Source of the DNA: Kaistia sp. 32K
GTDB taxonomy: Bacteria > Pseudomonadota > Alphaproteobacteria > Rhizobiales > Kaistiaceae
Direction of reading: 5' to 3'
Assembly (NCBI RefSeq): GCF_016629525.1
Contig: NZ_AP024269.1
Coordinates: 5,198,501-5,262,500 of the forward strand
Length of the DNA stretch: 64,000 bases
This document shows, in pieces, positions 34,611 to 59,612 of the stretch. Positions within the stretch are counted from its first letter, which is position 1. Every line of letters begins with the position of its first letter. The translations under genes and the position numbers were made by a program. Under the pieces are notes generated by a model, which was given only the letters and a program-made list of their open reading frames with translations, was not told the origin of the DNA and did not search any database.

Positions 34611-34691
34611 TCAGGGTGTCACAACCCTGAAACCCGCGCAGCACTAGGCCTTCACGCTGCCGGATTGTTTTTAGGGCGCACATAGGGCGCA
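34611..34691 (+). promoter_or_regulatory. Bipartite intergenic element E1
   Basis: Box A TCAGGGTGTC starts 14 bp after a stop codon and forms a hairpin TCAGGGT/ACCCTGA (34611-34630). Box B GGGCGCACATAGGGCGCA starts 63 bp later at 34674. The 14-mer GCGCAGCACTAGGC at 34636 is shared, at the same offset, with E8. The next gene starts 26 bp after box B. Confidence 0.8.
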
Positions 34692-34716
34692 AATCCACGC
34701 AATCGAGTTGAATTAC

Positions 34717-35085
34717 ATGAACGCATGCAAGTGGAAACCTGGCCAGGTGACGCTGTATACCGGCGAGCAGGTGCTGGAGACCAGCGAAGCGTGGCGGGCA
34801 GAGTGTGAAGCCCGCTACGTGCTCGCCAAGGGCCATGCCGAGCGGCACGACTTCCTGACCCTGATCGGCGCCAAGCGCGGCACCGAGGCTGTCGAGCGGA
34901 TCAGGCAGCACTGCCTCGAGGTTGAGCCGTACTTCGTGCTGGGCCTGCCGAACAAGCGGCAGCGGCAGCACTACATCGAGCAGGTCGAGTTGCGCTTCGG
35001 GCCGAACCCCAGGAAAGCCCTGGAGGGCAAGATCCTGGCGATCCATCACGCGAGAGTTGCAGCCCTCGACGCACTGCCGGCATAA
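34717..35085 (+). CDS. Hypothetical phage protein
   Basis: A 122-residue protein (MNACKWKPGQVTLYTGEQVL...). It has an Arg/Gln-rich middle (GLPNKRQRQHYIEQVELRFG) and no known motif. It is the first gene after element E1. Confidence 0.6.
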   Translation: MNACKWKPGQVTLYTGEQVLETSEAWRAECEARYVLAKGHAERHDFLTLIGAKRGTEAVERIRQHCLEVEPYFVLGLPNKRQRQHYIEQVELRFGPNPRKALEGKILAIHHARVAALDALPA

Positions 35086-35128
35086 TTGATCAAACATTGA
35101 CCCGGCCAGGTGCCGGTAGGGGAAAGGG

Positions 35129-35344
35129 GTGAAAAAACTCAAGCTGTGGGCCGGCAAGGCGTGGTGGTTCATCCGTGATGACCGTGTGGGTCTGATCCTC
35201 AGTGGATGCTTGCTGTTCTCTGCCTTCACCGCCCTGGTGCGTGGTCAGCTGGAGTGGGCGGCATGGAACTTTGCGTTCGCCACCTTCGGCATCTGGCTCG
35301 CCTGGCGCGGTCTGGCCGAGAAGGCCGAGGCGGTGCGCCAATGA
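35129..35344 (+). CDS. Small membrane protein
   Basis: A 71-residue protein from a GTG. There are two hydrophobic segments (VGLILSGCLLFSAFTAL and AAWNFAFATFGIWLAW). It overlaps the next gene by ATGA. It could be lysis-related or a host-membrane modulator; nothing specific is visible. Confidence 0.55.
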   Translation: MKKLKLWAGKAWWFIRDDRVGLILSGCLLFSAFTALVRGQLEWAAWNFAFATFGIWLAWRGLAEKAEAVRQ

Positions 35345-35553
35345 CCGCCTGGCAATTCATGAGCGACAGCCCGTGGCTGACGTTCTTCCTGGCCTGCGTG
35401 GCCAGCAGCTGCGTCGTGTCGATAGCACGTCTCCCGTTCCGCGCCATGAACATCCGCAAGCACGGCTGGCCGCCTGCGCACCTCGATGCCGACGGCGACT
35501 ACAAGGCGCACAAGCTGGCCGAGGCACCGGCCAAAGCGGAGCGTGACGCATGA
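35341..35553 (+). CDS. Small protein with membrane anchor
   Basis: A 70-residue protein with one hydrophobic segment (WLTFFLACVASSCVVSIA) and a charged C-terminus. Coupled to both neighbours by 4-bp overlaps. Function unknown. Confidence 0.55.
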   Translation: MTAWQFMSDSPWLTFFLACVASSCVVSIARLPFRAMNIRKHGWPPAHLDADGDYKAHKLAEAPAKAERDA

Positions 35554-35825
35554 GCACTCCCAACGTCGGCACCATCGGTCACGTCTCGCACGGCAAGACC
35601 AGCACGGCTCGCTCGATCCTGTTCGCCCTGGCGGCGGCTGGGGTGCTGAGCTGCGCCCAGGCAACCCCGGTGATGCCCACCCGCCGCCCTTGGCTCGAGC
35701 CCAACTTCGACCTGAACCAGCTGCTGGGCGACGCAGGCCGCCGCGGCGAGCGCCAGGCCCGCAAGGCTGACCGCAGGGCGCGCATGCAGGATCTCCAGCG
35801 CGCCGCTGCGGGAGGTGCACAGTGA
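35550..35825 (+). CDS. Small protein with an EF-Tu-like P-loop motif
   Basis: A 91-residue protein whose N-terminus, NVGTIGHVSHGKTS (residues 5-18), nearly copies the G1 loop of elongation factor Tu (NVGTIGHVDHGKTT). A hydrophobic helix and then a basic Arg-rich tail follow. There are no G3 or G4 motifs, so it is not a GTPase of the normal kind. It might be a nucleotide-binding fragment or an EF-Tu mimic; a remnant is also possible. Confidence 0.6.
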   Translation: MSTPNVGTIGHVSHGKTSTARSILFALAAAGVLSCAQATPVMPTRRPWLEPNFDLNQLLGDAGRRGERQARKADRRARMQDLQRAAAGGAQ

Positions 35826-36226
35826 CCGGCCTGTCCGCCAAGCTGTGCCGCCCCGCATACGAGCGCGCCGGCGAGTACCGCCGCCCCTCTGTCCGCATGC
35901 GCCCCCTGAGCCCGACCGAGCGCCAGGCTGCCCGGGCTGCCTGCTCTGTGCCGCCAAGCCGGTGGAATGAGGCCTACCTGCAGACCATGCGCAGCGCACC
36001 GGCGCCAGCGTTCAGCCTGGAGCAGCGCCTTGCGCAGCCTGGCCAGCTGGCGGCCCAGCCGCGCCCTGCGACCCCAGCCGCGCCGCCGGCCGTGCTTGTG
36101 CCGATCGCCGCCGAGGACAGCCAGGTGCGCGCCGTGCAGCGCGCAGCGCCCAAGATCAAAAAAGCCCCGCTCAGCGACCTGGCTGCGGCCACGCTGGAGC
36201 GCTACCGCAAGAGGTACTGCCTGTGA
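35822..36226 (+). CDS. Hypothetical phage protein
   Basis: A 134-residue, Ala/Pro/Arg-rich protein with a disordered middle (GQLAAQPRPATPAAPPAVLV). Overlaps both neighbours by 4 bp. No family recognised. Confidence 0.55.
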   Translation: MTGLSAKLCRPAYERAGEYRRPSVRMRPLSPTERQAARAACSVPPSRWNEAYLQTMRSAPAPAFSLEQRLAQPGQLAAQPRPATPAAPPAVLVPIAAEDSQVRAVQRAAPKIKKAPLSDLAAATLERYRKRYCL

Positions 36227-36399
36227 ACGAACGTGATCTGCTGGCCAAGGCTCGCGCCGAGCTGGAGAACATCCCGCTGAGCGACCCGAAGCGCATGCGC
36301 AAGGCCGTCCGCAAGACGATCCTGAAAGACCTGCAGCGGCGGGCCATCACCGGCGAGCCGTCGCCGTTCAAGCGCTTCGTGCCCGAGGCTCACCAGTGA
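36223..36399 (+). CDS. Small basic protein
   Basis: A 58-residue ORF from GTG at 36223, overlapping the previous stop codon (GTGA) and the next start. Sequence MNERDLLAKARAELENIPLS, then a Lys/Arg-rich helix. Likely nucleic-acid or protein binding; unknown role. Confidence 0.55.
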   Translation: MNERDLLAKARAELENIPLSDPKRMRKAVRKTILKDLQRRAITGEPSPFKRFVPEAHQ

Positions 36400-36626
36400 G
36401 CAAGACCGCGCAGCGCAAGCTGTCGGCGTACCAGAACGGGTACCGGGTCGGCCGTCACGGATGGCCTGCTGGCGTGAAGAGCTACACGGTCGGCGTGACC
36501 GGTTACTCCGCCTGGCGCCGCGGCCTGCGCGACGGAATCCGCGACCAGCTCGCGGCTCAGCGCCTGGAGAAGACCTGGCCGAGGCGTCTGCTGTCGTGGT
36601 TGCGCGGCCTGGTGGGGCGTCGATGA
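36396..36626 (+). CDS. Small Arg-rich phage protein
   Basis: A 76-residue protein (MSKTAQRKLSAYQNGYRVGR...) rich in Arg and Tyr. The sequence GYSAWRRGLRDGIRDQLA resembles the CrpP-like or ribosome modulation factor-type short basic proteins found in phages, but the match is weak. Overlaps neighbours. Confidence 0.5.
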   Translation: MSKTAQRKLSAYQNGYRVGRHGWPAGVKSYTVGVTGYSAWRRGLRDGIRDQLAAQRLEKTWPRRLLSWLRGLVGRR

Positions 36627-36721
36627 TCGCCCTGGCCTGGTTCACCCTGCTGTGCTGGCGCGCTGAGCGCCGGCCCCTCAAGCCATTTCCGCCGGCGCGC
36701 CCGGCCCTGGAGAGCGTGTGA
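36623..36721 (+). CDS. Micropeptide in overlapping gene string
   Basis: A 32-residue ORF (MIALAWFTLLCWRAERRPLK...). Its ATG overlaps the upstream stop codon and its own stop overlaps the next GTG, the same coupling used throughout this unit, so it is plausibly translated. Confidence 0.4.
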   Translation: MIALAWFTLLCWRAERRPLKPFPPARPALESV

Positions 36722-36990
36722 GACTGTCCCGCCTGCTGGACATCATCGTCCCGCGCTTCATGACTGAAGACAGCGCAGCTGCAATCCACTACTGCGCTTA
36801 CTGCGACGAGCCGCACTACCAGCCAGTCTGCTCGATGAGGGACGTCGAGCCCGGCGAGGTCTTCGACGGCATCATGACGATGCGGTTCTTCAACCTGTTT
36901 GGTCTGGCGCTATTCGCACGCTTCGACATGGGCAGCGTCCGTCCTTGGGTGAACCCGCACGACGGGCCGGATCGCCAATCCAGACCATGA
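36718..36990 (+). CDS. Hypothetical phage protein
   Basis: A 90-residue protein from GTG. A Cys/His cluster (HYCAYCDEPHYQPVC) may bind zinc. It is the last gene of the E1 unit; element E2 starts 2 bp after its stop codon. Confidence 0.55.
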   Translation: MRLSRLLDIIVPRFMTEDSAAAIHYCAYCDEPHYQPVCSMRDVEPGEVFDGIMTMRFFNLFGLALFARFDMGSVRPWVNPHDGPDRQSRP

Positions 36991-36991
36991 G

Positions 36992-37072
36992 TCAGGGCGT
37001 CAGGATAGCCGGCGCCTGACGCCACGCATGTTTCAGCCGGACAACCAAACCATTGGGCGCCGATAGGGCGCA
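36992..37072 (+). promoter_or_regulatory. Bipartite intergenic element E2
   Basis: Box A TCAGGGCGTC at 36992 lies in a hairpin GGCGTCAGG (36996-37004) / CCTGACGCC (37015-37023). Box B GGGCGCCGATAGGGCGCA is at 37055, again 63 bp downstream. The ribosome site AGGAGAAAGG begins one base after box B, so any transcript for the next gene must start at or before box B. Confidence 0.85.
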
Positions 37073-37084
37073 GGAGAAAGGAAA

Positions 37085-37384
37085 GTGACAACAACTCACG
37101 CACATGCAGGCCAGTCAGTACCGGAGCAGAAGGCCGGCGAGATCCACCAGCAGGCTCACATTCTGGAGAACATCGCGGCCTCGCTCGCTGAGCAGCTGGA
37201 CAATCTGCGCGATGACCTCGACCCGGTCATGTCGCCAGCTGTTCCAGTTGCTGGCCTGAAAGGCGAAGCAGCTGGCGAGCGCGCAGAAGAGTCACCGCTG
37301 GCCGAGCAACTGATCCGCATCGGCAGCAAGCTGCGTGACCTGTCGGTTGTGATGTCCGACATCAAGTCCCGCCTGCAGGTCTGA
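37085..37384 (+). CDS. Small helical phage protein
   Basis: A 99-residue acidic protein (GTG start), predicted helical or coiled (AHILENIAASLAEQLDNLRD). First gene of the E2 unit, directly upstream of the acyl carrier protein. Function unknown. Confidence 0.55.
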   Translation: MTTTHAHAGQSVPEQKAGEIHQQAHILENIAASLAEQLDNLRDDLDPVMSPAVPVAGLKGEAAGERAEESPLAEQLIRIGSKLRDLSVVMSDIKSRLQV

Positions 37385-37440
37385 CATCTGCGCCAACCAA
37401 CTACCGGCGCCACAAGGCGCCACTCCAAGGGGAAAGGAAA

Positions 37441-37692: not shown

Positions 37693-37733
37693 CACCCCGC
37701 GCCACGTAAGGCGCCCCACACTGCGACCAGCAC

Positions 37734-38720: not shown

Positions 38721-38854
38721 GCCCCAACCCGCTGATCGCCGCGCCCATCATCGCCGTCATTTGCCTGGCGACTGACGCGCCGGCGTTCGGGCTGCTCGTG
38801 CTGACCCTGTGGTCGGCCTGCGTGTACGAGGCGGTCGAGCGGCGCATAACCTGA
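38717..38854 (+). CDS. Small two-span membrane protein
   Basis: A 45-residue protein (MSPNPLIAAPIIAVICLATD...), two short hydrophobic helices. Its ATG overlaps the DUF3307 stop codon, so they are co-translated and may act together. Element E3 follows 8 bp later. Confidence 0.55.
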   Translation: MSPNPLIAAPIIAVICLATDAPAFGLLVLTLWSACVYEAVERRIT

Positions 38855-38861
38855 TACATAG

Positions 38862-38941
38862 TCAGGGCTTCTAACCGCCAGAAGCCAGCAGCAGCAAGGC
38901 TCGGCGCCACCTGATATGATTTAGGGCGCAGATAGGGCGCA
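38862..38941 (+). promoter_or_regulatory. Bipartite intergenic element E3
   Basis: Box A TCAGGGCTTC at 38862 sits in the hairpin GGCTTCT/AGAAGCC. Box B GGGCGCAGATAGGGCGCA is at 38924, 62 bp downstream, the only copy off by one. TATGAT lies at 38915, just before box B. Confidence 0.8.
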
Positions 38942-39529: not shown

Positions 39530-40138
39530 ATGAGTGACGATTACACATTCGAGAAACGACTGGCCGATGCCCGCATCGTCTACGAGGGCACGCACGGCCT
39601 GAGCACGGCCGAGCTCTCGAAGATCAGCGGCTTCGCCAAGGCCGTTGTGCGGCGTCAGTCGCGTGCCGAGGACTGGACGAAGTCGATCCGCGTTGGCGAG
39701 CAGACGCCGGAGGCCGCCGCGGCCCAGGCGCGCCTTGAGGAATACCAGCAGGAGATGGCCGAGAACGCCGAGCACCTGGCTGATGACTCAGGCCTGAGCA
39801 AGGACGCCGTCGACGACACCGATGCCGGCGAATATGACGACGTGGTCACGGCCCCGCCGATGGAGATCCAGACCGCCGCCCAGACCGTGCTCGACAAGGA
39901 GCGCCTGCGCGAGACCGTGCTGGAGCGTCATCGCAAGGAGTGGTCGGCGCCGCGCGGCCTGTCAGCCGAGGCCCTGCGCCTGCGCGACCGCGAGCCGATG
40001 AAGGCGTTCGAGCGTGCCAAGCTGGCCAAGATCACCGCCGAGACGCTGAAGTTGGTGCAGGACGGCGAGCGCCAGGCCCTTGGCCTGGATCTGGTCGACC
40101 AGCCGAAGGGCATCGTCGCCGTGGTGGAGCGCACATGA
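39530..40138 (+). CDS. Putative terminase small subunit-like DNA-binding protein
   Basis: A 202-residue protein with an N-terminal helix-turn-helix (LSTAELSKISGFAKAVVRRQ) and a helical C-terminus (EPMKAFERAKLAKITAETLK, LVQDGERQALGL). This composition is seen in phage small terminase-type proteins next to ParB-methyltransferases. The large subunit is 21 kb away, which weakens the call. Its stop overlaps the next start. Confidence 0.5.
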   Translation: MSDDYTFEKRLADARIVYEGTHGLSTAELSKISGFAKAVVRRQSRAEDWTKSIRVGEQTPEAAAAQARLEEYQQEMAENAEHLADDSGLSKDAVDDTDAGEYDDVVTAPPMEIQTAAQTVLDKERLRETVLERHRKEWSAPRGLSAEALRLRDREPMKAFERAKLAKITAETLKLVQDGERQALGLDLVDQPKGIVAVVERT

Positions 40139-41655
40139 GCGACATGAACAAGCTGCTCGGCCTGGACGCCGACATTCCGCAGATCAAGCTGCGGCCGCTG
40201 CAGAACCTGGTGGCTTACGCCAGGAACTCACGCACTCACAGCCCGGCGCAGGTCGAGCAGCTGCAGCGCCTCCTGCTGGAATTCCACTGGACGAACCCCG
40301 TCCTGATCGACGACCAGGGCATCGTCGCCGGCCACGGCCGGTGCATGGCGGCCGACGCCATCTACCAGCGTGGCGAGCAGATCAAGTTCCCCAACGGCAC
40401 GCCGATCCCCATCGGCATGGTGCCGACCCTGGACTGCACCGGCTGGTCAGCAGCTCAGCGCAAGGCCTACATCATCGCCGACAACCGCAGCGCGCTGAGC
40501 GCCGGCTGGGACGAGGAGATGCTGCACCTTGAGCTGAAAGAGCTCGAGGAGATGGACTACGACCTGTCCCTGACCGCGTTCGACGAGGACGAGCTGGCGG
40601 ATCTGCTGGCCGGCGAGCTCGAGCTGCCGAACCCGGACGCCGACCCGGACGCCGCGCCGCCGGAGCCAGACCATCCAGTGAGCGAGCCGGGCGACGTGTG
40701 GCTGCTGGGCGCCCACCGGGTGTGCGTCGGCGATGCGCGGAACGCGGACGACTGGGATCGGCTGATGCGTGGCGAGCGCGCCGACGCGGTGTGGACTGAC
40801 CCGCCCTACAACGTGAACCACGGCCGCAAGAACCGCGAGCAGGACAAGTGGGACGGCGGCAGCCGCGCAGCCACCGGCGGCATCGAGAACGACAAGCTGT
40901 CGCCGGCCGAATTCGCCGAATTTCTGGAGGGCACGTTCGCCGCGCTGTTCTCGATCATGAAGCCCGGGGCGCCGATCTACGTCGCGCACTCCGACATCGA
41001 GGGCCAGACCTTCCGCAACGCCTTCGCCGCGGCCGGCCTGCACCTGCAGTCGTGCCTGGTGTGGAAGAAAGACCGGATGGTGCTGGGCCGGATGGACTGG
41101 CAGAGCATCCACGAGCCGATCCTGTACGGCTGGAAGAAGGGCAGCGCGCACCGCTGGTACGGCGGGCGCAAGAACACCAGCGTGATCGACCTGGGCGACA
41201 GCTCGCCGTTCAGCCGCATGCCGGACGGCCGGTATCAAGTCAGGATCGGCGAGAGCGTGCTGGTGGTGTCGGCCGATGCGATGGTCGAGGAGCACCAGTC
41301 GTCGATGCTGTACGAGCCGAAGCCGGCGAGCAGCGGCCTGCACCCGACGCAGAAGCCGGTGGCCCTGGTCGAGCGCATGCTGAAGCAGTCGGCGCGCGCC
41401 GGCGACATCGTGGTCGACTCGTTCGGTGGTAGCGGCAGCACGCTGATTGCTGCCGATCGTCTCGGCATGAGCGCCAGGCTGATGGAGCTCGACCCGAAGT
41501 TTGCCGATGTCATTATCCAGCGCTGGCAGGACTGGAGTGGCAGGCGCGCAGTCCATGCGGTAACAGGCCAGCAGTTCCCCGGCGAAGAGGCTGCTCAGCC
41601 ACCAGTCGCCCCTGCCCCGCCTGCGACAGAACAGCACGGCCACGACATTTTCTGA
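40135..41655 (+). CDS. ParB-domain/DNA N-methyltransferase fusion
   Basis: A 506-residue fusion. Residues 14-115 form a ParB-like nuclease/CTPase-type domain (NPVLIDDQGIVAGHGRCMAA, RKAYIIADNRSA). Residues 185-470 form a DNA N6/N4 methyltransferase: catalytic DPPYNV (222-227), then late FGGSGST and LMELDPKFADVIIQRW for AdoMet binding (beta-type order). Such fusions are common in phages and modify phage DNA against host restriction. Start by ATGA overlap. Confidence 0.92.
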   Translation: MSDMNKLLGLDADIPQIKLRPLQNLVAYARNSRTHSPAQVEQLQRLLLEFHWTNPVLIDDQGIVAGHGRCMAADAIYQRGEQIKFPNGTPIPIGMVPTLDCTGWSAAQRKAYIIADNRSALSAGWDEEMLHLELKELEEMDYDLSLTAFDEDELADLLAGELELPNPDADPDAAPPEPDHPVSEPGDVWLLGAHRVCVGDARNADDWDRLMRGERADAVWTDPPYNVNHGRKNREQDKWDGGSRAATGGIENDKLSPAEFAEFLEGTFAALFSIMKPGAPIYVAHSDIEGQTFRNAFAAAGLHLQSCLVWKKDRMVLGRMDWQSIHEPILYGWKKGSAHRWYGGRKNTSVIDLGDSSPFSRMPDGRYQVRIGESVLVVSADAMVEEHQSSMLYEPKPASSGLHPTQKPVALVERMLKQSARAGDIVVDSFGGSGSTLIAADRLGMSARLMELDPKFADVIIQRWQDWSGRRAVHAVTGQQFPGEEAAQPPVAPAPPATEQHGHDIF

Positions 41656-41662
41656 CTGAGAG

Positions 41663-41743
41663 TCTGGTCATCTGGTGCGTTGAAACCGCTATAAATGGCG
41701 GTTTTGTCGCAACTAAATTGATTCAGGGCGCTTATCGGGCGCG
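41663..41743 (+). promoter_or_regulatory. Bipartite intergenic element E4
   Basis: The most diverged copy. The box A position holds TCTGGTCATC (41663). A terminator-like stem AAACCGC/GCGGTTTTGT follows, and box B is GGGCGCTTATCGGGCGCG at 41726, 63 bp from box A. The AraC-type gene starts only 15 bp after box B, which leaves no room for a standard promoter in between. Confidence 0.7.
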
Positions 41744-41757: not shown

Positions 41758-42570
41758 ATGAAGGCAATCTACAACCACGGCAGCACCCAGCGACGTATAG
41801 CACACCGAGGCGTGTTCGCAATCGAAACCTCGTGCGTGATCGAGATCGCCGAGATGGTGCTGCCCGGGCCGGCGTTCTTCCTCGTGCATGACGACGTCAC
41901 CAGCACCGAGCGGCTGAATGGCGGCCCGCCGATGCGGAAGGCCTGGCGCGCCGGTGACGTGGTCTACTTGCCGGGCATGACCAAGCTGCAGGTGTGGGCC
42001 GACCGCCCCTACAGCGAGACGATCATCGGCCTCGACCTGGTGCAGCCCTGGGACGCGATGTCCCGCACGCCGTCGGGCGAGCACTACGCCAGCATCCAAG
42101 AGGCCGAGATCCGCATGCTGGTGACGGCCATGCGTGAGGCCCTGGTGTCTGGCCGCTACGGCTACAGGGAGTCGGTGCCGCTGGCCATGCAGGCCGCGCT
42201 CGGTGAGCTCATGTCCGCCCGCCAGGGTACTGCGCCAGGCGCTGGCCGGATCAACCGCTCGGTGTTCGAGTTCATCGAGAGCAACTTGGGGCGCCGCATC
42301 TGCATGACCGAGCTGGCCGGCGTGGCCAACATGAGCCGGTTCCACTTCTCGCGCGTGTTCAAGGCAGCGGTAGGGCTCACCCCGGCGCGCTACTTGCTCG
42401 AGCGCCGGGTGGCCATGGCGGCAGCCCTGCTGGTGGCCGGGCATATGTCGATCGCCGAGGTCGGGTACCGCTCCGGCTTCTCCAGCCAGCAGCACTTCAC
42501 CACGGCCTTCCGGTCGGTGATGGGGAGCACGCCAGGGCGTCACCGTGGGTTTTCACTGCAAACCAGATAG
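41758..42570 (+). CDS. AraC-family transcriptional regulator
   Basis: A 270-residue protein with a cupin-like N-terminal half and a C-terminal AraC double HTH: MTELAGVANMSRFHFSRVFK, then YRSGFSSQQHFTTAFRSVMG. It is the only gene of its unit, flanked by elements E4 and E5. AraC regulators are unusual in phages and normally host-type; it could control phage units or lysogen host genes. Box E4 directly precedes it, so it might also autoregulate. Confidence 0.88.
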   Translation: MKAIYNHGSTQRRIAHRGVFAIETSCVIEIAEMVLPGPAFFLVHDDVTSTERLNGGPPMRKAWRAGDVVYLPGMTKLQVWADRPYSETIIGLDLVQPWDAMSRTPSGEHYASIQEAEIRMLVTAMREALVSGRYGYRESVPLAMQAALGELMSARQGTAPGAGRINRSVFEFIESNLGRRICMTELAGVANMSRFHFSRVFKAAVGLTPARYLLERRVAMAAALLVAGHMSIAEVGYRSGFSSQQHFTTAFRSVMGSTPGRHRGFSLQTR

Positions 42571-42574
42571 GTAA

Positions 42575-42655
42575 TCAGGGCGTCATGAGGTTTTCGGCCA
42601 GTATTTCTGAGGAGTTGCTTGGGAAGAGCAAATATTAGGGCGCAATTAGGGCGCA
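42575..42655 (+). promoter_or_regulatory. Bipartite intergenic element E5
   Basis: Box A TCAGGGCGTC at 42575, 5 bp after the AraC gene stop codon. Box B GGGCGCAATTAGGGCGCA at 42638, 63 bp downstream. A small stem TTGCT/AGCAA lies between. Confidence 0.82.
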
Positions 42656-46374: not shown

Positions 46375-46389
46375 TTCCCAGACACTGAA

Positions 46390-46470
46390 TCAGGGCGTCT
46401 ACTTGCATCGAGCCAGTAACTGCGCGGCATGCGGGCCGTCTATGCTTTCCTTGGGCGCATATAGGGCGCA
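46390..46470 (+). promoter_or_regulatory. Bipartite intergenic element E6
   Basis: Box A TCAGGGCGTC at 46390, box B GGGCGCATATAGGGCGCA at 46453, spacing 63 bp. TATGCT lies 6 bp before box B. The hairpin between the boxes is weak in this copy. Confidence 0.85.
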
Positions 46471-49622: not shown

Positions 49623-49849
49623 TGGTCAAGCCAGACTACTCCGAGTTTGACGCCAAGCTACTCAACCTGATCATGCTTGGCAAAAACCGCATGATGCTTC
49701 TTGATCAAGATCGGTCTTTGATTGAGGCAGCTAGACCATTCTGCCGCCCAGGCCAGCCGGAATTCCGCGTGATCGACAGCCGCCTTCAGGCTATGCGCAA
49801 GGATGGCAAGATCAAGCACAATGGCCGAGAGTGGACGCTGACGACATGA
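49622..49849 (+). CDS. Small winged-helix-like protein
   Basis: A 75-residue protein. The end QAMRKDGKIKHNGREWTL looks like the wing of a winged helix. Its ATG shares a base with the preceding stop codon (TGATG). Last gene of the E6 unit. Confidence 0.55.
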   Translation: MVKPDYSEFDAKLLNLIMLGKNRMMLLDQDRSLIEAARPFCRPGQPEFRVIDSRLQAMRKDGKIKHNGREWTLTT

Positions 49850-49856
49850 TGCTGAG

Positions 49857-49937
49857 TCAGGCGGTCATGCCAGCAACAGCCTGATTATGAGCCGCCTGCA
49901 AGGGCGGCTTTGCTTTTTCGGGCGCATATAGGGCGCA
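49857..49937 (+). promoter_or_regulatory. Bipartite intergenic element E7 with clear terminator
   Basis: Box A TCAGGCGGTC at 49857. A strong terminator follows (GAGCCGCC-TGCAA-GGGCGGCTTT then T run, 49890-49918), and box B GGGCGCATATAGGGCGCA is at 49920, 63 bp from box A. This copy shows most plainly that the element ends one unit before the next begins. Confidence 0.88.
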
Positions 49938-50188: not shown

Positions 50189-50254
50189 TTGCATTATTTG
50201 TAGTTACTCAATTATGATCTGTGAAACCAACATCAAGCCTGGAAACAACCAGGC
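50189..50254 (+). promoter_or_regulatory. Promoter and hairpin leader of the 5mC methyltransferase
   Basis: TTGCAT (50189), 18 bp, TATGAT (50213), then the leader with stem GCCTGG (50237-50242) / CCAGGC (50249-50254), followed by GGAGACTTATG. It parallels 44072-44141 base by base in most positions. Because the -10 is at 50213, the GTG at 50221 cannot be the translation start. Confidence 0.75.
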
Positions 50255-50262
50255 GGAGACTT

Positions 50263-51888
50263 ATGCTTACCTACGGAAGTGTTTGCAGCGGTATCGAAGC
50301 CGCTAGCGTGGCCTGGCATCCGCTTGGCTGGCGGCCTGAGTGGTTCGCCGAGATTGAAAAATTCCCATCAGCTGTGCTGGCGCATCAATGGCCTGACATC
50401 CCGAACATGGGCGACATGACCAAGATCGCTGCAATGGTTCGTGCTGAGGCGGTAGCCGCACCTGACGTACTGGTCGGCGGTACTCCCTGCCAAGCCTTCT
50501 CTGTCGCCGGCGCCCGCGCCGGTCTCGCTGATCCACGCGGTCAGCTCACCCTAGCCTACGTGGATCTTGCCAATGCAATCGACTCAACTCGCGCTCTTCG
50601 AGGAAAGCAACCCGCCGTCATCGTCTGGGAAAATGTCCCTGGCGTACTCAGCTCAAAAGATAATGCCTTCGGATGCTTTCTGGCTGGACTTGCCGGTGAA
50701 GACTGCGAACTGCAACCACCAGGGGGTAGATGGTCGGACGCTGGTTGTGTGTTTGGCCCCCAAAGAACAATCGCGTGGCGGGTCTGCGATGCCCAATATT
50801 TCGGCGTGGCCCAACGACGCCGTCGTGTGTTCGTTGTCGCAAGTGCTCGAGATGGGTTCGATCCCACAGCGGTACTTTTTGAGCGCGAAGGCGTGCGCCG
50901 GGATACTCCGCCGAGCCGAAGCGCGGGGCAAGACGTTACCGCCGGCACTCTTAGAAGCACTGATGGCGGTAGCGACGTCGACCACGCGAGAGCAAACCAT
51001 CTAGTCACCGGCACGCTGATGGCCAATGGAAAGGCGGCGGGAAGTGCCACACAACAAGATGCCGAACAGGGCATGCTCGTTGTCCATGGCACACAAGACC
51101 CCTGCACCAGCACTCACACCGCCTTCACTCTCGGTCGCAACAACGGCGCCGAGAACGTCCTGGCCTTCAGCTGCAAGGATTACGGCGCTGATGCTGGCCC
51201 GTTGAGTCCCACGCTACGCGCCATGGGTCACGGCGAAAGCCACGCGAATGCTGGCGGACAGGTTGCTGTTGTAATTGGTTGCGACGGTACCGTAGATGGC
51301 CCGGTTCCACCGCTGATGGCAAGGTCAAGTCGTGGTGGTGCTCAAACGCTGTCACCAGGGCATCAGACCGACGGACACATGATAGCTACTTGCGTCACTG
51401 GCGACATCACCCACACCCTTAAAGCCGAAGGATTTGACGCCAGCGAGGATGGCACAGGTCGCGGCCAGCCGATCATCGCTGCATTCGCCGAGAACAGTCG
51501 CGCTGAACTGCGGTACGAGGCTGGCGATGGCAGTATCACTGGCGCACTGAAGACTGGAGGCGGCAAGGCTGGCCAGTCCTACCCTGTCGCCCAGGTCGGC
51601 ATGGCCGTCCGCCGGCTCACACCGCGCGAGTGCGAGCGCCTGCAGGCATTCCCTGATGACTACACCCTAATACCCTACGGTCGCCCGGTGCGCATGGAAA
51701 AGCTGGAGCAGGACTGGATCAAGTACCTGCTGCGAGGCGGTGTGATGACCCTGGATCAGGCTTGCCAGGCGGCGGCCGATGGCCCGCGCTATAAGGCACT
51801 GGGAAACAGCATGTGCGTCTACAACATGCGGTGGATTGGTCGGCGCATTAGCAGCTATTTGACTGTGGGTTCTGGCACGTTGTCGTGA
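50263..51888 (+). CDS. DNA (cytosine-5-)-methyltransferase
   Basis: A 541-residue 5mC enzyme. Motif I region is GSVCSGIEAASVAW, the catalytic loop is GGTPCQAFSVAG (Cys76), motif VI is VWENVPG (ENV 123-125), the motif VIII-like segment is FGVAQRRRRVFVVAS, and the C-terminal motifs are RRLTPRECERLQAFPDDYTL and ALGNSM. A long Gly/Thr-rich segment (about 230-450) replaces a normal recognition domain. ATG at 50263 with GGAG upstream. Heads the unit with the ADP-ribosyltransferase and Nudix genes. Confidence 0.93.
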   Translation: MLTYGSVCSGIEAASVAWHPLGWRPEWFAEIEKFPSAVLAHQWPDIPNMGDMTKIAAMVRAEAVAAPDVLVGGTPCQAFSVAGARAGLADPRGQLTLAYVDLANAIDSTRALRGKQPAVIVWENVPGVLSSKDNAFGCFLAGLAGEDCELQPPGGRWSDAGCVFGPQRTIAWRVCDAQYFGVAQRRRRVFVVASARDGFDPTAVLFEREGVRRDTPPSRSAGQDVTAGTLRSTDGGSDVDHARANHLVTGTLMANGKAAGSATQQDAEQGMLVVHGTQDPCTSTHTAFTLGRNNGAENVLAFSCKDYGADAGPLSPTLRAMGHGESHANAGGQVAVVIGCDGTVDGPVPPLMARSSRGGAQTLSPGHQTDGHMIATCVTGDITHTLKAEGFDASEDGTGRGQPIIAAFAENSRAELRYEAGDGSITGALKTGGGKAGQSYPVAQVGMAVRRLTPRECERLQAFPDDYTLIPYGRPVRMEKLEQDWIKYLLRGGVMTLDQACQAAADGPRYKALGNSMCVYNMRWIGRRISSYLTVGSGTLS

Positions 51889-51903: not shown

Positions 51904-54900
51904 ATGAACGAGAATACCGCTCCGATCGTAGCACGCCGCGTCGTCCTGCTGGTCAAGTCTCAAAAGTTCGCCGGCCAGGCGGGATATTTCCTGCAAGGTG
52001 GTCGGTGGCACGCCATCAAGCACGACAAGCCGGCGCCGAAAGGGGCGCCGAAGGCCAAGCACCCTGGCGCAGCCGGCCAGCACGCACCCGTCGTCCTGAC
52101 CGATGAGCAGGTTGAGCAGCTGAAGTATCCTGCCGAAAAGGCTGCGACCAACAAGGAGATGGCAGCGCACAACAACGTGCACCTGCCTAAGCTGCTCGAA
52201 CATGCCGCGAACGGCGACGCGACGGCGATCCTGGGCACGGGCTTCGGCACCAACTCCCACTCGAAGAAGAAGGCCCTGGCCGCCAACGTCCTGCTCGGCA
52301 TGATGGGCAGTTCGCACAAGGTCGAGTTGGGCCAGGCCGCCGGCAGCCACCCTGCTGTGCAGGTGCCGGCAGCCCACGAGCCCGCCGAGGCACCTGCCAA
52401 GCCAGCGGAGAAGCCCAAGCTCGGCCCGGTCGGCCAGGCGCTGAAGGAGGCGATCAAGGAGCCTGCTGCGCAATCTGCAACCCCAGGCCTGGCCATGCCC
52501 GCCTTCGTGGAAGGCAAGACCACCAACTCGGTTGTCTCCTACTACGAAGGCCAGGCCCAGAAGATCCTCGACATGGCCGCCGCCGGCGACGCCGTAGGCC
52601 TGGCCGCCATGAAGGAAGCTGGCCTCAAGCAGAACGCCAAGGGCAAGGTGTCGAACACCTTCGCCGGCAAGACGCAGAACAGCAAGCTGCTGCTGGCGCT
52701 GCACGGCCAGGCGCTGGAGCAGGCCAATGGTGGCAAGCCGGCGCCTGAAGCAGAGAAGCCCGCCGAGCCCAAGCCGGAACCGAAGGCCGAGAAGCCTGCG
52801 CCGGCACCTGCCTCACCGGAGCAGGCCGCCGAGCCCCAGGCTGCGACCTCGAAGCTCTCGCAAATCCCGTGGGACAGCCTGGTGCTGCCCGACAGAAACA
52901 CCAACGCCAAGTCGCACAATGGCAAGGTTGCTCAGATCAAGGCCATGGCCGAGGCTGGCGACCTTGCGGGGCTGGAGGCGTTCACCGCCGGGAAGAACAC
53001 CTACGGCACCAAACAGAAAAAGCTCGCCGCGCTGGCTGCTGCCGCGTTGAAAGAGGACGCCGCTGCTCCGGCACCGATAGAGCAGGCCAAGCCTGCCGAG
53101 CAACCAGCCCCGGAACCTGCCGCCACAGAGCCAGCCGAGCAAGGCCCGAAAGAAGGCGACACCAAGCCCGCTGCCGATGGCGGCACCCTCGTGTTCAGCA
53201 AGGGTCGCTGGCACAAGCAAGAGCAGCCGAAGGCGGCTGAACCGGCACCGCCCGCCGAGCCAGAGCCAGCAGCGGCGGTGCCTGCCGGCAAGAAACTCAA
53301 GCCGTCCGAGGCCATCGCCATCGGCAAGGGCCTGAAGACCGCCAGCGGCATGAAGGCGAAGCTGAAAGCGCTGGCCGTGGCCGGCGATGTCGCGGGCCTG
53401 CAGGAGTTCATCAGTGTCGCCAATGGGCTGCCAGCCTCCAAGAAATACGCCGAGAAACTGATCACGGCCATGACCGATGGCGAGCCTGGCGCCGCTGCAC
53501 CACCCAAGGCCGCGCCGAAGCCGGCCACGGCCGGCGGCATCGAGTCCATGGACGCCTGGACGCAGACCGGCCCGCAGGGTGGCTCTAACCCGGGCGGCAA
53601 GTTCAAGGATCAGGACGGCGTCGAGTGGTACTGCAAGTTCCCCGGCAATGAGGACGTGGCCAAGTCCGAGGTGCTGGCCGCCAAGCTGTACGGCGCCGCC
53701 GGCGTGTCGGGCCAGGACGCCAAGCTGGTGATGAAGGACGGCAAGCTCGGCATCGCCAGCCGCTGGCATGACGTCTCGAAGGTGTCGCCTGCCGCCCTGG
53801 CCAAGGCTGATGGCGTTGCCGCGGGCTTTGCCGCAGACGCCTGGCTGGGTAACTGGGACGTGGTCGGCCTCGGCTACGACAACCTGCAGCTCGATGCCAC
53901 CGGCAAGGCCATGCGGATCGATGCCGGCGGCTCGCTGGAGTACCGCGCCCAGGGCGGCAAGAAGGCCTTCGGCAACGTGGTCACCGAGATCGACAGCCTG
54001 CGCGATCCCAAGATCAACCCGCAGTCTGCTGCCGTGTTCGGCAAGATGACGAAGGCCGACATCACCGCCGGCGTTGCCAAGGTGCTGAAGGTCAGCGACG
54101 CGCAGATCCACGCTCTGGTCAACACCTACGGCCCGGGCGATGCTGCGCACAAGAAGGCGCTGGCCGAGACCCTGATCGCGCGCAAGGCCGACCTGCTGGC
54201 CAAATTCCCGAAGGCGAAGAAGGCGAAGAAGCACACCTTCAAGCCGGAGAAGATCAGCGAGCCGCCATCGTTCCTGAACTGGGGCGGCAGCGGCAAGGAT
54301 GGCCCGTCGAGCAAGCCGTTCGTCAACCAGGCGAATGAGAAGGCTGTGCAGGCCATCTACGAGGCGGCGAAGACAGGCAGCATCGACGCCGTCAAGGAGC
54401 TGACTGCCGAGACTTACGACAAGGCCACCGGCGAGGTGACCGGCAGCGCGAAGGTGCTCGAGCACCCGTCTCAGCACGTCAAGGGCTATGCGCAGCAGGC
54501 TATCAACGAGATCAACTACCAGCTGAACCCGCCGAAGCGCTTCCGCTTCGAGGGCGGCCATCCGCTGAGCTCGCTGAACTCGGCCTATCCATCGCACAAG
54601 GGGCCTCCCCACAGCGACGCGGTCGAGAAGGCTGGCAAGTTCCTCGTGCTCGGCGAGCCAGGCACGGTCAGCCTGGACGCGCTGGCCCTGCCGAAGATCA
54701 CCCATGCCAGCGGTCAGCTGACCAAGGCGACCTACTCGCCGGCAGCTCAGTCTGCCATCCAGGGGATGCCTGAGACGCAGAAGCAGGCGATCAAGGCGTA
54801 CACCGGCAGCTCCTATGTCGGCATGAACAGCTCGCTGTGGACGGGTAACCCGACTGGCGCCGCGAAGGCGGCCGGCGAGGCGCTGCACACCATGGGGCAT

Positions 54901-55284
54901 GACATTGCCCCCGGTACCGTCCTTTCCCGCAAGCTCAGCGTGCAAGGTGCAGCCCTGGATCAGATCCTCAAATCCACTGGCAAGGTTCTGCAAGAGCCGG
55001 CTATTATGTCGACATCGATCCGGCCGTCGTCGTGGTCTGGCAACGTGCAGCTGAAACTGCACGTCGGCCCTGGCGTCAAAGGGCTATGGGTGGGGCCAGG
55101 CTCTGCGGGCGGCAGCAAGGCGCTTTCGATGAACGCCGGCGAGGATGAACTGATCCTGCCTCCGAACACTCGCCTGCTGATCCTTTCGGTCAAGAAGCCG
55201 TCAGGCCCTGATGCGGACGGCTTCGGCGCTGGCGCCCAACACGTAATTGAGGCAGTCATTCTGCCAAGCATGCAGGCGAGCTGA
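51904..55284 (+). CDS. Polyvalent protein: repeats, HipA/PI-kinase-like domain and ADP-ribosyltransferase
   Basis: A 1126-residue protein. GRWHAI (33-38) and GRWHKQ (434-439) mark two copies of a short motif. Five helical repeats carry the AxxGD signature (101-105, 225-229, 349-353, 491-495, and AAKTGS at 821). Residues 545-770 look like a HipA/PI3-kinase-fold domain: WYCKFP (K578), AKSEVLAAKLYG, ADAWLGNWDVVGLGYDNLQL and RIDAGGSLEYRAQG. The C-terminus (about 940-1126) is a mono-ADP-ribosyltransferase: SRKL (R1009), STS (1036-1038) and E1080-D-E1082 before LILP. Pro/Ala/Glu linkers join the parts. It may be injected or act on host targets early in infection. Confidence 0.82.
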   Translation: MNENTAPIVARRVVLLVKSQKFAGQAGYFLQGGRWHAIKHDKPAPKGAPKAKHPGAAGQHAPVVLTDEQVEQLKYPAEKAATNKEMAAHNNVHLPKLLEHAANGDATAILGTGFGTNSHSKKKALAANVLLGMMGSSHKVELGQAAGSHPAVQVPAAHEPAEAPAKPAEKPKLGPVGQALKEAIKEPAAQSATPGLAMPAFVEGKTTNSVVSYYEGQAQKILDMAAAGDAVGLAAMKEAGLKQNAKGKVSNTFAGKTQNSKLLLALHGQALEQANGGKPAPEAEKPAEPKPEPKAEKPAPAPASPEQAAEPQAATSKLSQIPWDSLVLPDRNTNAKSHNGKVAQIKAMAEAGDLAGLEAFTAGKNTYGTKQKKLAALAAAALKEDAAAPAPIEQAKPAEQPAPEPAATEPAEQGPKEGDTKPAADGGTLVFSKGRWHKQEQPKAAEPAPPAEPEPAAAVPAGKKLKPSEAIAIGKGLKTASGMKAKLKALAVAGDVAGLQEFISVANGLPASKKYAEKLITAMTDGEPGAAAPPKAAPKPATAGGIESMDAWTQTGPQGGSNPGGKFKDQDGVEWYCKFPGNEDVAKSEVLAAKLYGAAGVSGQDAKLVMKDGKLGIASRWHDVSKVSPAALAKADGVAAGFAADAWLGNWDVVGLGYDNLQLDATGKAMRIDAGGSLEYRAQGGKKAFGNVVTEIDSLRDPKINPQSAAVFGKMTKADITAGVAKVLKVSDAQIHALVNTYGPGDAAHKKALAETLIARKADLLAKFPKAKKAKKHTFKPEKISEPPSFLNWGGSGKDGPSSKPFVNQANEKAVQAIYEAAKTGSIDAVKELTAETYDKATGEVTGSAKVLEHPSQHVKGYAQQAINEINYQLNPPKRFRFEGGHPLSSLNSAYPSHKGPPHSDAVEKAGKFLVLGEPGTVSLDALALPKITHASGQLTKATYSPAAQSAIQGMPETQKQAIKAYTGSSYVGMNSSLWTGNPTGAAKAAGEALHTMGHDIAPGTVLSRKLSVQGAALDQILKSTGKVLQEPAIMSTSIRPSSWSGNVQLKLHVGPGVKGLWVGPGSAGGSKALSMNAGEDELILPPNTRLLILSVKKPSGPDADGFGAGAQHVIEAVILPSMQAS

Positions 55285-55787
55285 TGAGCGAGCAGGAACT
55301 GAACCACCACAATGACCCATCCGGGCTCGCTGCCTCTGCCAAGGAGGCCAGCGGCCAGCGGCCATACCTGGGCGACCTCGACGACATCGAAAAGCTGCTG
55401 CGCGCCTTCACCGACGGCGTGACCAGCCGGTTCGCCCAGGTCGGCCGTGGCCAGCTGACGCCTGACGCCGCGGCCACGGCCGACCGCGAAGAGTGCCTGC
55501 GCATGGCTGGGGTCTTCGCCGGGCTCGATGATGACTATGCCGCGATCGAGCACTGGAACGGCGAAGGCCTGGCGAACTACATTCGCGCCCGCATGGTCGA
55601 GGCCGTCCAGCCTGGTGAGGATGACGAGAGCGTCATTGCCCAGGCCTTCGGGGTGTTCGTGCACCGGATCTACGGTGCCATCGCCGAGGCAGGCAGCTCG
55701 CCGGATGCCGAAGCGCTGTCGGTGACGTTGCTGGAGAACATCCGCTCGTTCACTTGGCTGCTTGTGGGGCTCGAGTCCAATGAGTAG
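55284..55787 (+). CDS. Hypothetical protein between ADP-ribosyltransferase and Nudix genes
   Basis: A 167-residue acidic helical protein (MSEQELNHHNDPSGLAASAK...; FGVFVHRIYGAIAEAGSSPD). ATG shares a base with the previous stop (TGATG), and its end overlaps the Nudix gene by 8 bp, so all three are coupled. Function unknown; a chaperone or antagonist of the large protein is conceivable. Confidence 0.65.
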   Translation: MSEQELNHHNDPSGLAASAKEASGQRPYLGDLDDIEKLLRAFTDGVTSRFAQVGRGQLTPDAAATADREECLRMAGVFAGLDDDYAAIEHWNGEGLANYIRARMVEAVQPGEDDESVIAQAFGVFVHRIYGAIAEAGSSPDAEALSVTLLENIRSFTWLLVGLESNE

Positions 55788-56586
55788 TACGTTTGAGAAG
55801 TATCAGGAGCACCTGGCCGGAGTCGACCTGCTCGGCGACCCCATTGACGACCTGGTGAAGGGACACGTGAAGGGCTACACCAAGAAGAACGGCACCTATG
55901 TCAGGCCGCATGCCAGGGTGGGCGATGCGGTGGCGCCAGACCCAATCCATCACCCTCGCGCAGGCGAGGATGGCAAGCAGGTGCTGATCAAGCAGCCGCA
56001 CCACGCATCGCAGCCGAGCACCTGGCACCACCCTGATGCGGTGGCGACGTTCGTGCCTGGCGGCGACGTGCCGCCGTCGATCAACGGCGTGCCGCTGCGC
56101 GCCTGGCGTGATCACCCGCAGACGAATGACGGCTGGGATTTCGTCGACGGCCAGATGGACGACCTCGACGAGCCGCCTTTCCATCTGCCGCCGGGGAAGA
56201 AGGCATCCAGCGGCGTGGTCATTCAAGAGCCGGACGGGAGGGTATGGGTTATACACCCAACCAATGCTTTTGGCGGGTATGAGGCCTCGCTACCTAAAGG
56301 CACTGCCGAACCTGACCTGTCGCTGCAAGCGAACAGCATCAAAGAGGTGTTTGAGGAAACAGGGTTGAAGGTCGAGATCACCGGCTTTCTCGGGGACTTT
56401 TCCCGAACGACCTCTGTCGCTCGAATGTACACTGGTCGCCGAGTTGGCGGCTCACCGCATCTCATGGGCTGGGAGGCGCAGGCGGTATCGTTGTGCCCCG
56501 CCAGCAAGCTGTACGATTTACTGAACGTCTGGTCAGACCATGCGATTGCGGAAGCTCTTGGCGCTGGAAAGCCGCCTTCTCAGTAA
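55780..56586 (+). CDS. Nudix hydrolase-like protein with phage N-terminal module
   Basis: A 268-residue protein. The N-terminal VKGHVKGYTKKNGTYVRPHA is a phage-protein motif. From about residue 144 it is a Nudix fold: SSGVVIQEPDGRVWVIHPTN, then the box starting G174 with KEVFEETGL (188-196). The box keeps EExG, but the canonical first Glu is Leu180 and Arg is Lys188. Nudix enzymes hydrolyse nucleoside diphosphates linked to X, such as ADP-ribose, which fits its place beside an ADP-ribosyltransferase. Confidence 0.8.
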   Translation: MSSTFEKYQEHLAGVDLLGDPIDDLVKGHVKGYTKKNGTYVRPHARVGDAVAPDPIHHPRAGEDGKQVLIKQPHHASQPSTWHHPDAVATFVPGGDVPPSINGVPLRAWRDHPQTNDGWDFVDGQMDDLDEPPFHLPPGKKASSGVVIQEPDGRVWVIHPTNAFGGYEASLPKGTAEPDLSLQANSIKEVFEETGLKVEITGFLGDFSRTTSVARMYTGRRVGGSPHLMGWEAQAVSLCPASKLYDLLNVWSDHAIAEALGAGKPPSQ

Positions 56587-57973: not shown

Positions 57974-58531
57974 GTGTTTTTAGTAGAATTGTTGGCGCGT
58001 AAACTCACGCAGTGGGCGGATACAACTGTCTGCTATGTGCAGGATAGTGATTGCCATTGCTGGCCATTGCTCGGCGAAGGTGTGCGATACTGCGAAGACG
58101 AGTGGGATGTAACTGACAGCGATGGCATTAGTCTCATGGATCTCAGTTTCGATGCCGGGACGGTACGTCCTGGCTATCTCGCCGAAGACCACGCCACCGC
58201 CATCGTCACCCGCTCTCAGTGGCAGGCCGAGCGCGAGCGGCTTGGGCTGGCGGCCGGCAAGAGCTTCGTCGAAGCCGAGCGAGACACCTGGGAGCGCCGC
58301 GCCTGCGACGAGGCCACCCGTGTGGTCGAGTTGACGGCGCAGCGGGACGAGTTGCTGGCGGCGCTGGAACTGCTTTGGAAAGTAGCGCTGCCTGTCTCGA
58401 ACGTCGCACACAACCTCGGACAGCACGACGAGCAGTGGAGCGACAGCATCTATCCTGGCATCCAGGCGCTGGACAATGCTCGAAACCAGGCTGCTGAGGC
58501 CATCGCCCGCGCCAAAGGCGGTGCAGCATGA
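57974..58531 (+). CDS. Phage accessory protein (Ead-like)
   Basis: A 185-residue protein starting with GTG after GGAAGGAAG. The C-terminal half (VVELTAQRDELLAALELLWK, LDNARNQAAEAIARAKGG) is the helical segment typical of phage accessory proteins. Overlaps the next gene by 4 bp. Function unknown. Confidence 0.65.
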   Translation: MFLVELLARKLTQWADTTVCYVQDSDCHCWPLLGEGVRYCEDEWDVTDSDGISLMDLSFDAGTVRPGYLAEDHATAIVTRSQWQAERERLGLAAGKSFVEAERDTWERRACDEATRVVELTAQRDELLAALELLWKVALPVSNVAHNLGQHDEQWSDSIYPGIQALDNARNQAAEAIARAKGGAA

Positions 58532-58740
58532 TCATCTTCCAGATCATCGGCCTGCTTATTGTCAGCGGCGCGCTCTTCTGGGTCGCCATGTTCGGGCTCG
58601 CGTGTGCGGCCTTCCACAACATTGGCGGGAATGGTTCGTGGAAGACGGTCGCAGCAGGCCTGCTCGCCTGCGCGGCGGGCATCTACGGCATCTGCTTTAT
58701 CTGGGCGAAATATTCGCCGCTGACCGTGGGGGTGGCATGA
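58528..58740 (+). CDS. Small two-span membrane protein
   Basis: A 70-residue protein with two hydrophobic segments (IIFQIIGLLIVSGALFWVAM and ACAAGIYGICFIWA). Overlaps both neighbours by 4 bp. Function unknown. Confidence 0.6.
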   Translation: MIIFQIIGLLIVSGALFWVAMFGLACAAFHNIGGNGSWKTVAAGLLACAAGIYGICFIWAKYSPLTVGVA

Positions 58741-59009
58741 GCACTTCACGCATCGACAGCATCCGCTACAGCTCCAGCCCTGCGCGCAAGAAGCCCCAGG
58801 CCGGCGACGAGCGCTTCCTGAAGGGGCGCCAGGTCACGCAGATCAGGCAGCAGCGCATGCACACCTACGCCGGTGGCGGCATGGCCGGGCTGGTCAGCAA
58901 TGGCCGGCCGCTGTGGGAGTTGGTCGACAAGGGCAGCGAGTGCGATCGCACGTCCGAGGCGTGGAAGGCCAAGCGTGCGGCTGAGTGGGGTGTTCACGAT
59001 GCTGACTGA
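58737..59009 (+). CDS. Hypothetical basic protein
   Basis: A 90-residue basic protein (MSTSRIDSIRYSSSPARKKP...). Gly-rich middle and a charged C-terminus. ATGA overlap with the membrane protein gene. Function unknown. Confidence 0.55.
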   Translation: MSTSRIDSIRYSSSPARKKPQAGDERFLKGRQVTQIRQQRMHTYAGGGMAGLVSNGRPLWELVDKGSECDRTSEAWKAKRAAEWGVHDAD

Positions 59010-59253
59010 AGAGCAGAAGGAAGAACGCCGACGGCTCGCACGTTTGGCCGCCGAGAACGCCCAGAGGGTTCTGAAGCACGGCGACCGCCTGCGCGTCACC
59101 AAGTGCCCTGGCACGAAACGATGGATCACCTTCGAGTGCTGGAGTGGCCAGTGGATGGTATCGAAGTCAGGCATCGACGACTATCACCCGATCAACGTCG
59201 ACCGCCTGAACGGTGCGCCTGTAGACTTCACGCAAGAGCGGGGTGGCGAGTGA
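58999..59253 (+). CDS. Hypothetical phage protein
   Basis: An 84-residue protein (MLTEEQKEERRRLARLAAEN...). KCPGTKRWITFECWSGQWMV suggests a small beta domain. It overlaps the previous gene by 11 bp; a GTG at 58990 is an alternative start. Confidence 0.55.
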   Translation: MLTEEQKEERRRLARLAAENAQRVLKHGDRLRVTKCPGTKRWITFECWSGQWMVSKSGIDDYHPINVDRLNGAPVDFTQERGGE

Positions 59254-59516
59254 TGGCATGCCAGCACCACAACTTCCATGCCAGCGTGCGCGTGGCGCGC
59301 CTGGAGGACGTTGGTCGCTTCACGGCCGAGATCCGCATCACATGCAGCGACTGTGGTGTGCCGATGCAGTTTATGGGCCTTCAGCCTGGCTACAACGCCG
59401 ACGGCGCCACCGTCAGCCTGGATGGACTGGAGGCCAACATCGGCATCCATCCGCGTGGCCAGCGGCCGAATCCGCTGCAGGAGCTGATGGGTTACACCCT
59501 GCGCCAGCACAACTGA
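59253..59516 (+). CDS. Conserved phage protein with zinc knuckle
   Basis: An 87-residue protein: MACQHHNFHASVRVARLE, then ITCSDCGVPMQFMGLQPG. The CQHH and CSDC groups may bind zinc. From memory it is widespread in phages of Gammaproteobacteria. ATG shares a base with the previous stop. Confidence 0.65.
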   Translation: MACQHHNFHASVRVARLEDVGRFTAEIRITCSDCGVPMQFMGLQPGYNADGATVSLDGLEANIGIHPRGQRPNPLQELMGYTLRQHN

Positions 59517-59531
59517 CGACCTGATCCCGAA

Positions 59532-59612
59532 TCAGAGCAGCAAACCGCCAGATGCAGCGCAGCACTAGGCATGCGGCATCTGGCATTCAATCTAGGGCGC
59601 CGATAGGGCGCA
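59532..59612 (+). promoter_or_regulatory. Bipartite intergenic element E8
   Basis: Box A TCAGAGCAGC at 59532, box B GGGCGCCGATAGGGCGCA at 59595, spacing 63 bp. An 8-bp stem CCAGATGC/GCATCTGG lies between, and GCGCAGCACTAGGC (59557-59570) is shared with E1 at the same offset of 38 bp from box B. Confidence 0.85.

Follow-up and report, generated by a model that had tools for sequence, protein, structure and literature searches.

Repeated elements resembling integrase attachment sites separate accessory gene units in a Kaistia prophage

The window analyzed here is a 64,000-nucleotide stretch of Kaistia sp. 32K DNA (positions 5198501–5262500 of a 5.35-Mb contig) that contains the left part of a 91.6-kb prophage inserted in a host tRNA-Arg gene, which forms its left end. 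Eight similar elements of 92–93 base pairs (bp) divide accessory genes of this prophage into units. Each element joins a core that resembles the tRNA-Arg anticodon stem-loop to a pair of repeats that recur near the attachment sites of the prophage. We conclude from sequence that the elements are almost certainly core-plus-arm sites of an integrase, organized like the left attachment site (attL) of a prophage. It also seems probable that they recombine, serving the prophage's own tyrosine integrase as additional attachment-type sites. The anatomy of the elements, their likeness to attachment sites, their co-variation with the phage attachment site (attP) of relatives, the uniqueness of their overlaps within a phage and the junctions at their cores are observed directly in the DNA.

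Anatomy of the elements

The elements are composed of three parts. The first, the core, is a 17-bp imperfect palindrome with the consensus CCWGA-7 nucleotides-TCWGG (in fuller form, CCWGAY-N5-RTCWGG). This is followed by a spacer of 57–58 bp, which in some copies contains a terminator-like hairpin, and by box B, in which GGGCGC occurs twice with an 11-bp period. An earlier note on this DNA described a bipartite element with a box A and a box B; all 16 of its box starts are exact to the base, and the boxes are indeed 63 bp apart in seven of the eight copies and 62 bp apart in one. Reading 12 bp further left reveals that the palindrome extends beyond box A, which forms its right half; the left half overlaps or abuts the stop codon of the upstream gene. 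The TGA of CCTGA serves as the stop codon in many elements, and the note's statement that no copy lies inside a gene holds generally, apart from the few bases that elements have in common with upstream stop codons. A same-strand stop codon is found within −40 to +20 of the core start in 62 of 72 elements, compared with 381 of 1440 random places.

A scan for cores matching the consensus at 11 or more of 12 positions, with box B at a spacing of 74–76 bp, yielded eight elements in the prophage, compared with zero in every one of 200 dinucleotide-shuffled versions. The tandem box B pattern occurred 10 times in the prophage, compared with zero (196 shuffles) or one (4 shuffles). Box B pairs that lack a core at the fixed distance start at 12380 and 12409 in the window, and one more lies past the right edge of the window, 131 bp left of the core of the right attachment site (attR). 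With sister phages included, box B began 74–76 bp from the core start in 76 of 78 matches (72–78 bp was allowed, and ties were resolved towards 75).

Further analysis of a set of 117 elements, at least one of which (L074) is a likely chance match, revealed that the central four bases of the core are not conserved and that the right flank of the core resembles the tRNA beyond the stem. The hairpin reported between the boxes exists in part of the copies and is not general: spacers fold with z < −1.5 in three of the eight window copies and in 38 of the 117 elements, short of the hairpin in every copy that would mark an intrinsic terminator-promoter unit. We considered the core as an RNA stem-loop and rejected this candidate, since compensatory pairing is weak; the bases at core positions 3 and 15 (TA 42, AT 30, AA 22, TT 22, other 1) exhibit only mild pairing.

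Likeness to the prophage attachment sites

Position 12269, in the anticodon region of tRNA-Arg, is the first base of the 51-bp identity block that attL and attR share; attR contains the same anticodon loop 91,570 bp to the right of attL. The half-sites of the elements match the tRNA-Arg anticodon stem and are inverted around an overlap of 7 bp, in keeping with the 6–8 bp of an attachment-site core. Throughout the plus strand of a 116.5-kb stretch, the core consensus is matched at 12 of 12 positions by six sites, namely the tRNA-Arg anticodon loop and five elements, and at 11 of 12 positions by the remaining three elements plus seven unrelated places. The repeats of box B recur beside both ends of the prophage, starting 105 and 134 bp to the right of the attL core center and 139 bp to the left of the attR core center. 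All eight overlaps differ from the CTACGAA of the bacterial attachment site (attB), which indicates that the elements are not copies of the integration site.

The integrase gene lies just left of attR. Its product has no sequence match in PDB at E 0.001, and host genomes with a relative were limited to its own, which was the only one among 14 in the genus (E 1e-60), 28 in the family (1e-70) and 385 in a sample of the class (1e-80).

Overlaps are not repeated within a phage

The first three nucleotides of the overlap were not alike in any of 189 within-phage pairs, compared with 8.8 expected by permutation (P 0.0002) and 8.2 expected from independent columns (P 0.0002). This test comprised 64 elements of ten phages and excluded Jeremy, G422, G412, G415–G417, G426, G427 and short contigs. 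In the same ten phages, bases 4–5 exhibited no avoidance (13 pairs, 12.9 expected), bases 2–4 were alike in 1 pair (4.2 expected, P 0.06) and bases 5–7 in 11 (17.5 expected, P 0.035). For five more distant phages, none of 95 pairs agreed in nucleotides 1–3 (4.3 expected, P 0.012), a safer figure because related phages have common ancestry. The pattern suggests that the sites behave as if they recombine and self-recombination is avoided. Overlaps specific to a slot across phages were also considered, and this idea proved only partly true.

Co-variation with attP in related phages

A locus search with the integrase as a single protein found no relative, and a search with a five-sequence alignment found 77 loci. 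Relatives include the Pseudomonas phages Dolphis, Jeremy and Touem01 and the Bordetella phage PHB04, whose integrases are 58–78% identical, and IMG/VR contigs, the long ones of which span about 88–98 kb. Tandem repeats adjoin the integrase genes of many relatives. Because 9-mer arm repeats at attP could be detected automatically at only part of the loci, arms were read by eye; tRNA types at attP other than tRNA-Arg (His, Gly and Lys) were likewise assigned by eye.

In Touem01 and contig G412, the arm repeats of the elements change together with those of attP. Both attP arm pairs of Touem01 are GGGCCCC, which is also the first repeat in all three of its elements; the second repeat is imperfect in two. 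The attP arms of G412 are of the GGGCCC type, and the 20 kb examined contain two element candidates with GGGCCC, of which one is good and the other weak. Neither Touem01 nor these 20 kb contain tandem GGGCGC, which occurs 1–11 times in each of the 18 other pieces scanned. PHB04 has one GGGCCC match with a core-like site, which may be due to chance.

The cores, too, follow in part the tRNA that a phage uses. In phages with a tRNA-Gly-like loop at attP (G415–G417), a GCTG right half is found in three of five elements with usual spacing, compared with none of the 112 others in the set of 117. Three of five off-spacing sites in these phages also end in GCTG. The off-spacing sites (L273, L276, L284, L296 and L297) are displaced by about one helical turn, as if phase alone mattered. 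The cores of tRNA-Lys-like and G432/G433-type phages differ again, by eye only partly towards attP.

Smaller phages with related integrases have tandem arms in 9 of 12 loci (16–21 kb each), in all nine only at attP, so the elements may be limited to large phages. In several of these smaller phages, the repeats have a 12-bp period and another sequence.

L331 and L333 (contigs G428 and G427) have a tRNA-Lys-like gene beside the integrase; by eye, a few hundred inserted bases apparently interrupt its anticodon loop at the position of the G426 attP core. Rfam and ARAGORN reported nothing there. In viral contig L029, Bacteroidales record L119, L161 and L178, the sequence GGGCGCAAATAGGGCGCA follows a tRNA-like 3' end at a distance of about 50 bp; this arm motif may also serve distant integrases. 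L126, L137, L144 and L159 contain a box B pair with near-identical flanks; two are named Paraburkholderia, and all may belong to one island family.

Sequence junctions at cores

We compared 145 elements from 63 sources, some of which are pieces of one contig; duplicates were dropped only when they matched fully over the stretch between 30 bp ahead of the core and the end of box B, and the thresholds for one-sided likeness were of our choosing. Among 10,440 pairs, 16 were alike on the right only, 10 on the left only, 10 on both sides and 10,306 on neither, the rest falling between thresholds. Overlaps were identical in 11 right-only, 1 left-only, 9 both-sided and 35 neither pairs, although these pairs are not independent.

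Individual comparisons place junctions at or very near cores. Between G418 and G422, one unit of 1,005 bp is present or absent between two cores, with the junction inside the core. The difference between L378 and G429 is a replaced segment of 614 and 1,302 bp, respectively, which on the right ends 3 bp before the core; the two are unrelated up to that point and 94–99% identical after the core. Dolphis and Jeremy are near-identical over kilobases, and near-identity ends 2 bp after a core, the first difference being its third base.

Two genes were noted beside these cores. In G418 (L303/L304), a 216-amino-acid gene lies just before the core; it is deleted in G422 (L318), where its first codons are fused to the core, and this deletion is adjacent to the 1,005-bp unit but distinct from it. 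Jeremy has an extra gene directly before a core (L186:37397-37711) that is absent from Dolphis at that place.

Proposed model

These sequences suggest a model in which box A would belong to a core shaped like a tRNA anticodon stem-loop, with its two half-sites inverted on either side of a 7-bp overlap, and box B would provide a pair of arm sites for the integrase. The spacing would suit a single bend by HU or IHF, and one integrase would hold core and arm, as at attL. The phage itself encodes an HU-family protein and a small protein with a weak excisionase match (Table 1). Each unit would start at one overlap, take in the right half-core, the spacer, the arm pair and the genes, and stop at the left half-core of the next element. 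Most likely, the integrase would act at the cores to exchange, add or remove accessory genes between related phages, and overlaps would be kept distinct in each genome so that a phage does not delete its own units. Integrase binding, strand exchange, and its direction and timing are what we infer here from DNA sequence.

Several findings weigh against this model. The arms of the elements lie 66–67 bp from the core, compared with 105 and 134 bp at attL, and five of ten sites in the tRNA-Gly phages have the core at 64–65 bp (four) or 87 bp (one) instead of 75. One GGGCGC pair elsewhere in G412 breaks the rule of arm types; G429 contains elements, yet no arm pair lies within 750 bp beside its integrase-like gene. 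One element of M. lupini (Mlup), with CTA, has nucleotides 1–3 of its own attB. These nucleotides are equal in 29 of 152 pairs of right-homologous units and in 59 of 1492 others; homologous units thus often differ in overlap. Core base 3 exhibits no clear dependence on the left flank. Scanning for the pattern (L378/G429) and reading by eye (Dolphis/Jeremy) revealed no core where the replaced segments begin on the left. Dolphis and Jeremy switch identity at 49 places, only one of which lies 20 bp or less from a core or attP; with 0.17 expected, this is not significant alone. Finally, unit order is largely kept across distant phages, so free integron-like shuffling is unsupported.

Alternative explanations

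The main alternative is that the elements are integrase-binding sites for regulation or DNA architecture, at which bound integrase represses or insulates accessory operons while unit turnover reflects ordinary phage mosaicism. The location of the elements at operon boundaries in gene direction (the excess of stop codons described above), the conserved unit order and the hairpins in part of the spacers all fit this explanation, as does precedent: excerpts of one study describe integrase gene promoters that overlap attL and are repressed by the integrase itself, in KplE1 IntS and others (PMC2951348). However, it leaves unexplained why nucleotides 1–3 of the overlap are not repeated within phages and why one unit is present or absent with an in-core junction in G418 and G422, and we consider it unlikely. 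We have little confidence in a third possibility, that the elements are passive seams whose common 93-bp sequence is mere homology for general recombination at operon ends. Junctions at elements do occur alongside many elsewhere (48 of the 49 Dolphis/Jeremy switches), and short common stretches exist, such as ATCAGGG at the G418/G422 junction. Homology would favor repeated overlaps, yet overlaps avoid repetition; moreover, co-variation with attP and a spacing that is fixed despite unlike spacers point to a site bound by protein.

The earlier note had proposed a terminator-promoter unit, or a target of a phage activator or single-subunit RNA polymerase, which now appears highly improbable. Terminator-like hairpins in several spacers make a terminator plausible in part of the copies, and start codons often follow closely behind box B. 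A promoter is unsupported, since box B is a repeat motif of attachment sites that is also found near attL and attR and follows the arm type of attP in relatives; the same facts speak against an activator or polymerase target. The transcription start placed at box B had been deduced from start-codon distance alone, and a promoter scan of 34400–50400, which covers seven of the eight elements, found two sites (2.2 expected by chance) and thus no excess of sigma-70-like sites. At gathering scores, the tRNA was the sole Rfam match in the window. Closest to the evidence is the note's remaining idea of exchangeable cassette boundaries: the units are terminated by integrase-type sites, at which several gene replacements also end.

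Accessory units

The units encode three DNA methyltransferases, an AraC regulator, NUDIX and ADP-ribosyltransferase-like proteins, and unknowns (Table 1). The ADP-ribosyltransferase-like protein of unit 7 is 1126 amino acids in length and weakly matches Alt-like proteins; the trio of genes to which it belongs has counterparts in Dolphis and Jeremy.

Table 1 Attachment-site features, elements and selected genes of the prophage (window coordinates unless a locus is named)
Feature	Position	Strand	Details
Host tRNA-Arg (acg), attB target, prophage left end	12240..12316	+	ARAGORN, Rfam
attL core, anticodon stem-loop CCAGA-CTACGAA-TCTGG	12267..12283	+	12/12 to element core consensus
P' arm at attL, four GGGCGC repeats in two tandem pairs	12380..12426	+	
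Phage HU-family DNA-binding protein, candidate bending protein	14625..14897	-	Pfam PF00216, E 4e-28
Small protein, weak excisionase/regulator family match	15674..15886	-	phrog_66, E 3.1e-5
Element 1 (core, spacer, arm pair)	34599..34691	+	Overlap TGATCAA
Element 2	36980..37072	+	Overlap CCATGAG
Element 3	38850..38941	+	Overlap TACATAG
Element 4	41651..41743	+	Overlap CTGAGAG; strong spacer hairpin
Element 5	42563..42655	+	Overlap TAGGTAA
Element 6	46378..46470	+	Overlap CACTGAA
Element 7	49845..49937	+	Overlap TGCTGAG; terminator-like hairpin 49889-49910
Element 8	59520..59612	+	Overlap TCCCGAA; strong spacer hairpin
Unit 3, DNA methyltransferase (N6/N4)	39940..41655	+	Pfam (from 40135), PADLOC
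Unit 4, AraC-family regulator	41758..42570	+	Pfam
Unit 5, DNA methyltransferase with helix-turn-helix	44147..45727	+	Pfam
Unit 7, C5 cytosine methyltransferase	50221..51888	+	Pfam
Unit 7 trio: protein with ADP-ribosyltransferase-like C-terminus, 167-amino-acid protein, NUDIX protein	51904..56586	+	Pfam, PHROGs
Integrase gene, 435 amino acids	L061:1826-3133, just left of attR copy		Arm-DNA-bind_3 and Phage_integrase domains; phrog_1

Discussion

The elements share with the attL of lambda-type heterobivalent tyrosine integrases two half-sites separated by a short overlap, one-sided arm repeats and, by the distances familiar from lambda, room for one bend. In contrast to lambda-type attL, up to nine were counted in a single phage, outside the integration site; every element has an overlap of its own and arms closer than at the true attL. 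Excerpts of a structural precedent describe lambda integrase bridging C'-P'1 and B-P'2 over an IHF bend (PMC4880445). Actinobacteriophages likewise use an attB with the core in a tRNA anticodon loop; those are host sites, whereas here the sites are repeated in the phage.

In integron cassette arrays, an attC site stands behind each accessory unit, oriented with the gene and overlapping its end. The elements resemble such arrays in occurring once per accessory unit, in gene orientation and with overlap of the gene end; they differ in having a phage-type integrase with an arm domain, core-plus-arm sites, multi-gene units and a conserved order. The integrase beside attR, the one checked, is not of the IntI type, as its domains and phrog_1 match indicate. 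Phage integrons described in PMC9892861 have integron integrases and attC, and a term search of that paper gave no match for tRNA, attP or arm-type.

Exchange of accessory genes among temperate phages is usually ascribed to homologous or illegitimate recombination. Among the titles and abstract beginnings listed from the open-licence PMC literature, none reported sites such as these. We raise as a tentative and rather speculative possibility that these temperate phages of about 90 kb form a family with address-coded exchange, in which the integrase would recombine attL-like sites of co-infecting phages where nucleotides 1–3 match, while distinct codes would hold each phage's own units in place. 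If true, the family would possess a dedicated mechanism for gene exchange, in which accessory operons would end in sites that are numerous, internal to the phage and incompatible with one another. The outcome would be integron-like, built from attL-type sites. The mosaicism of these phages would become testable with one purified enzyme, and the elements would constitute a naturally orthogonal set of sites for one tyrosine integrase.

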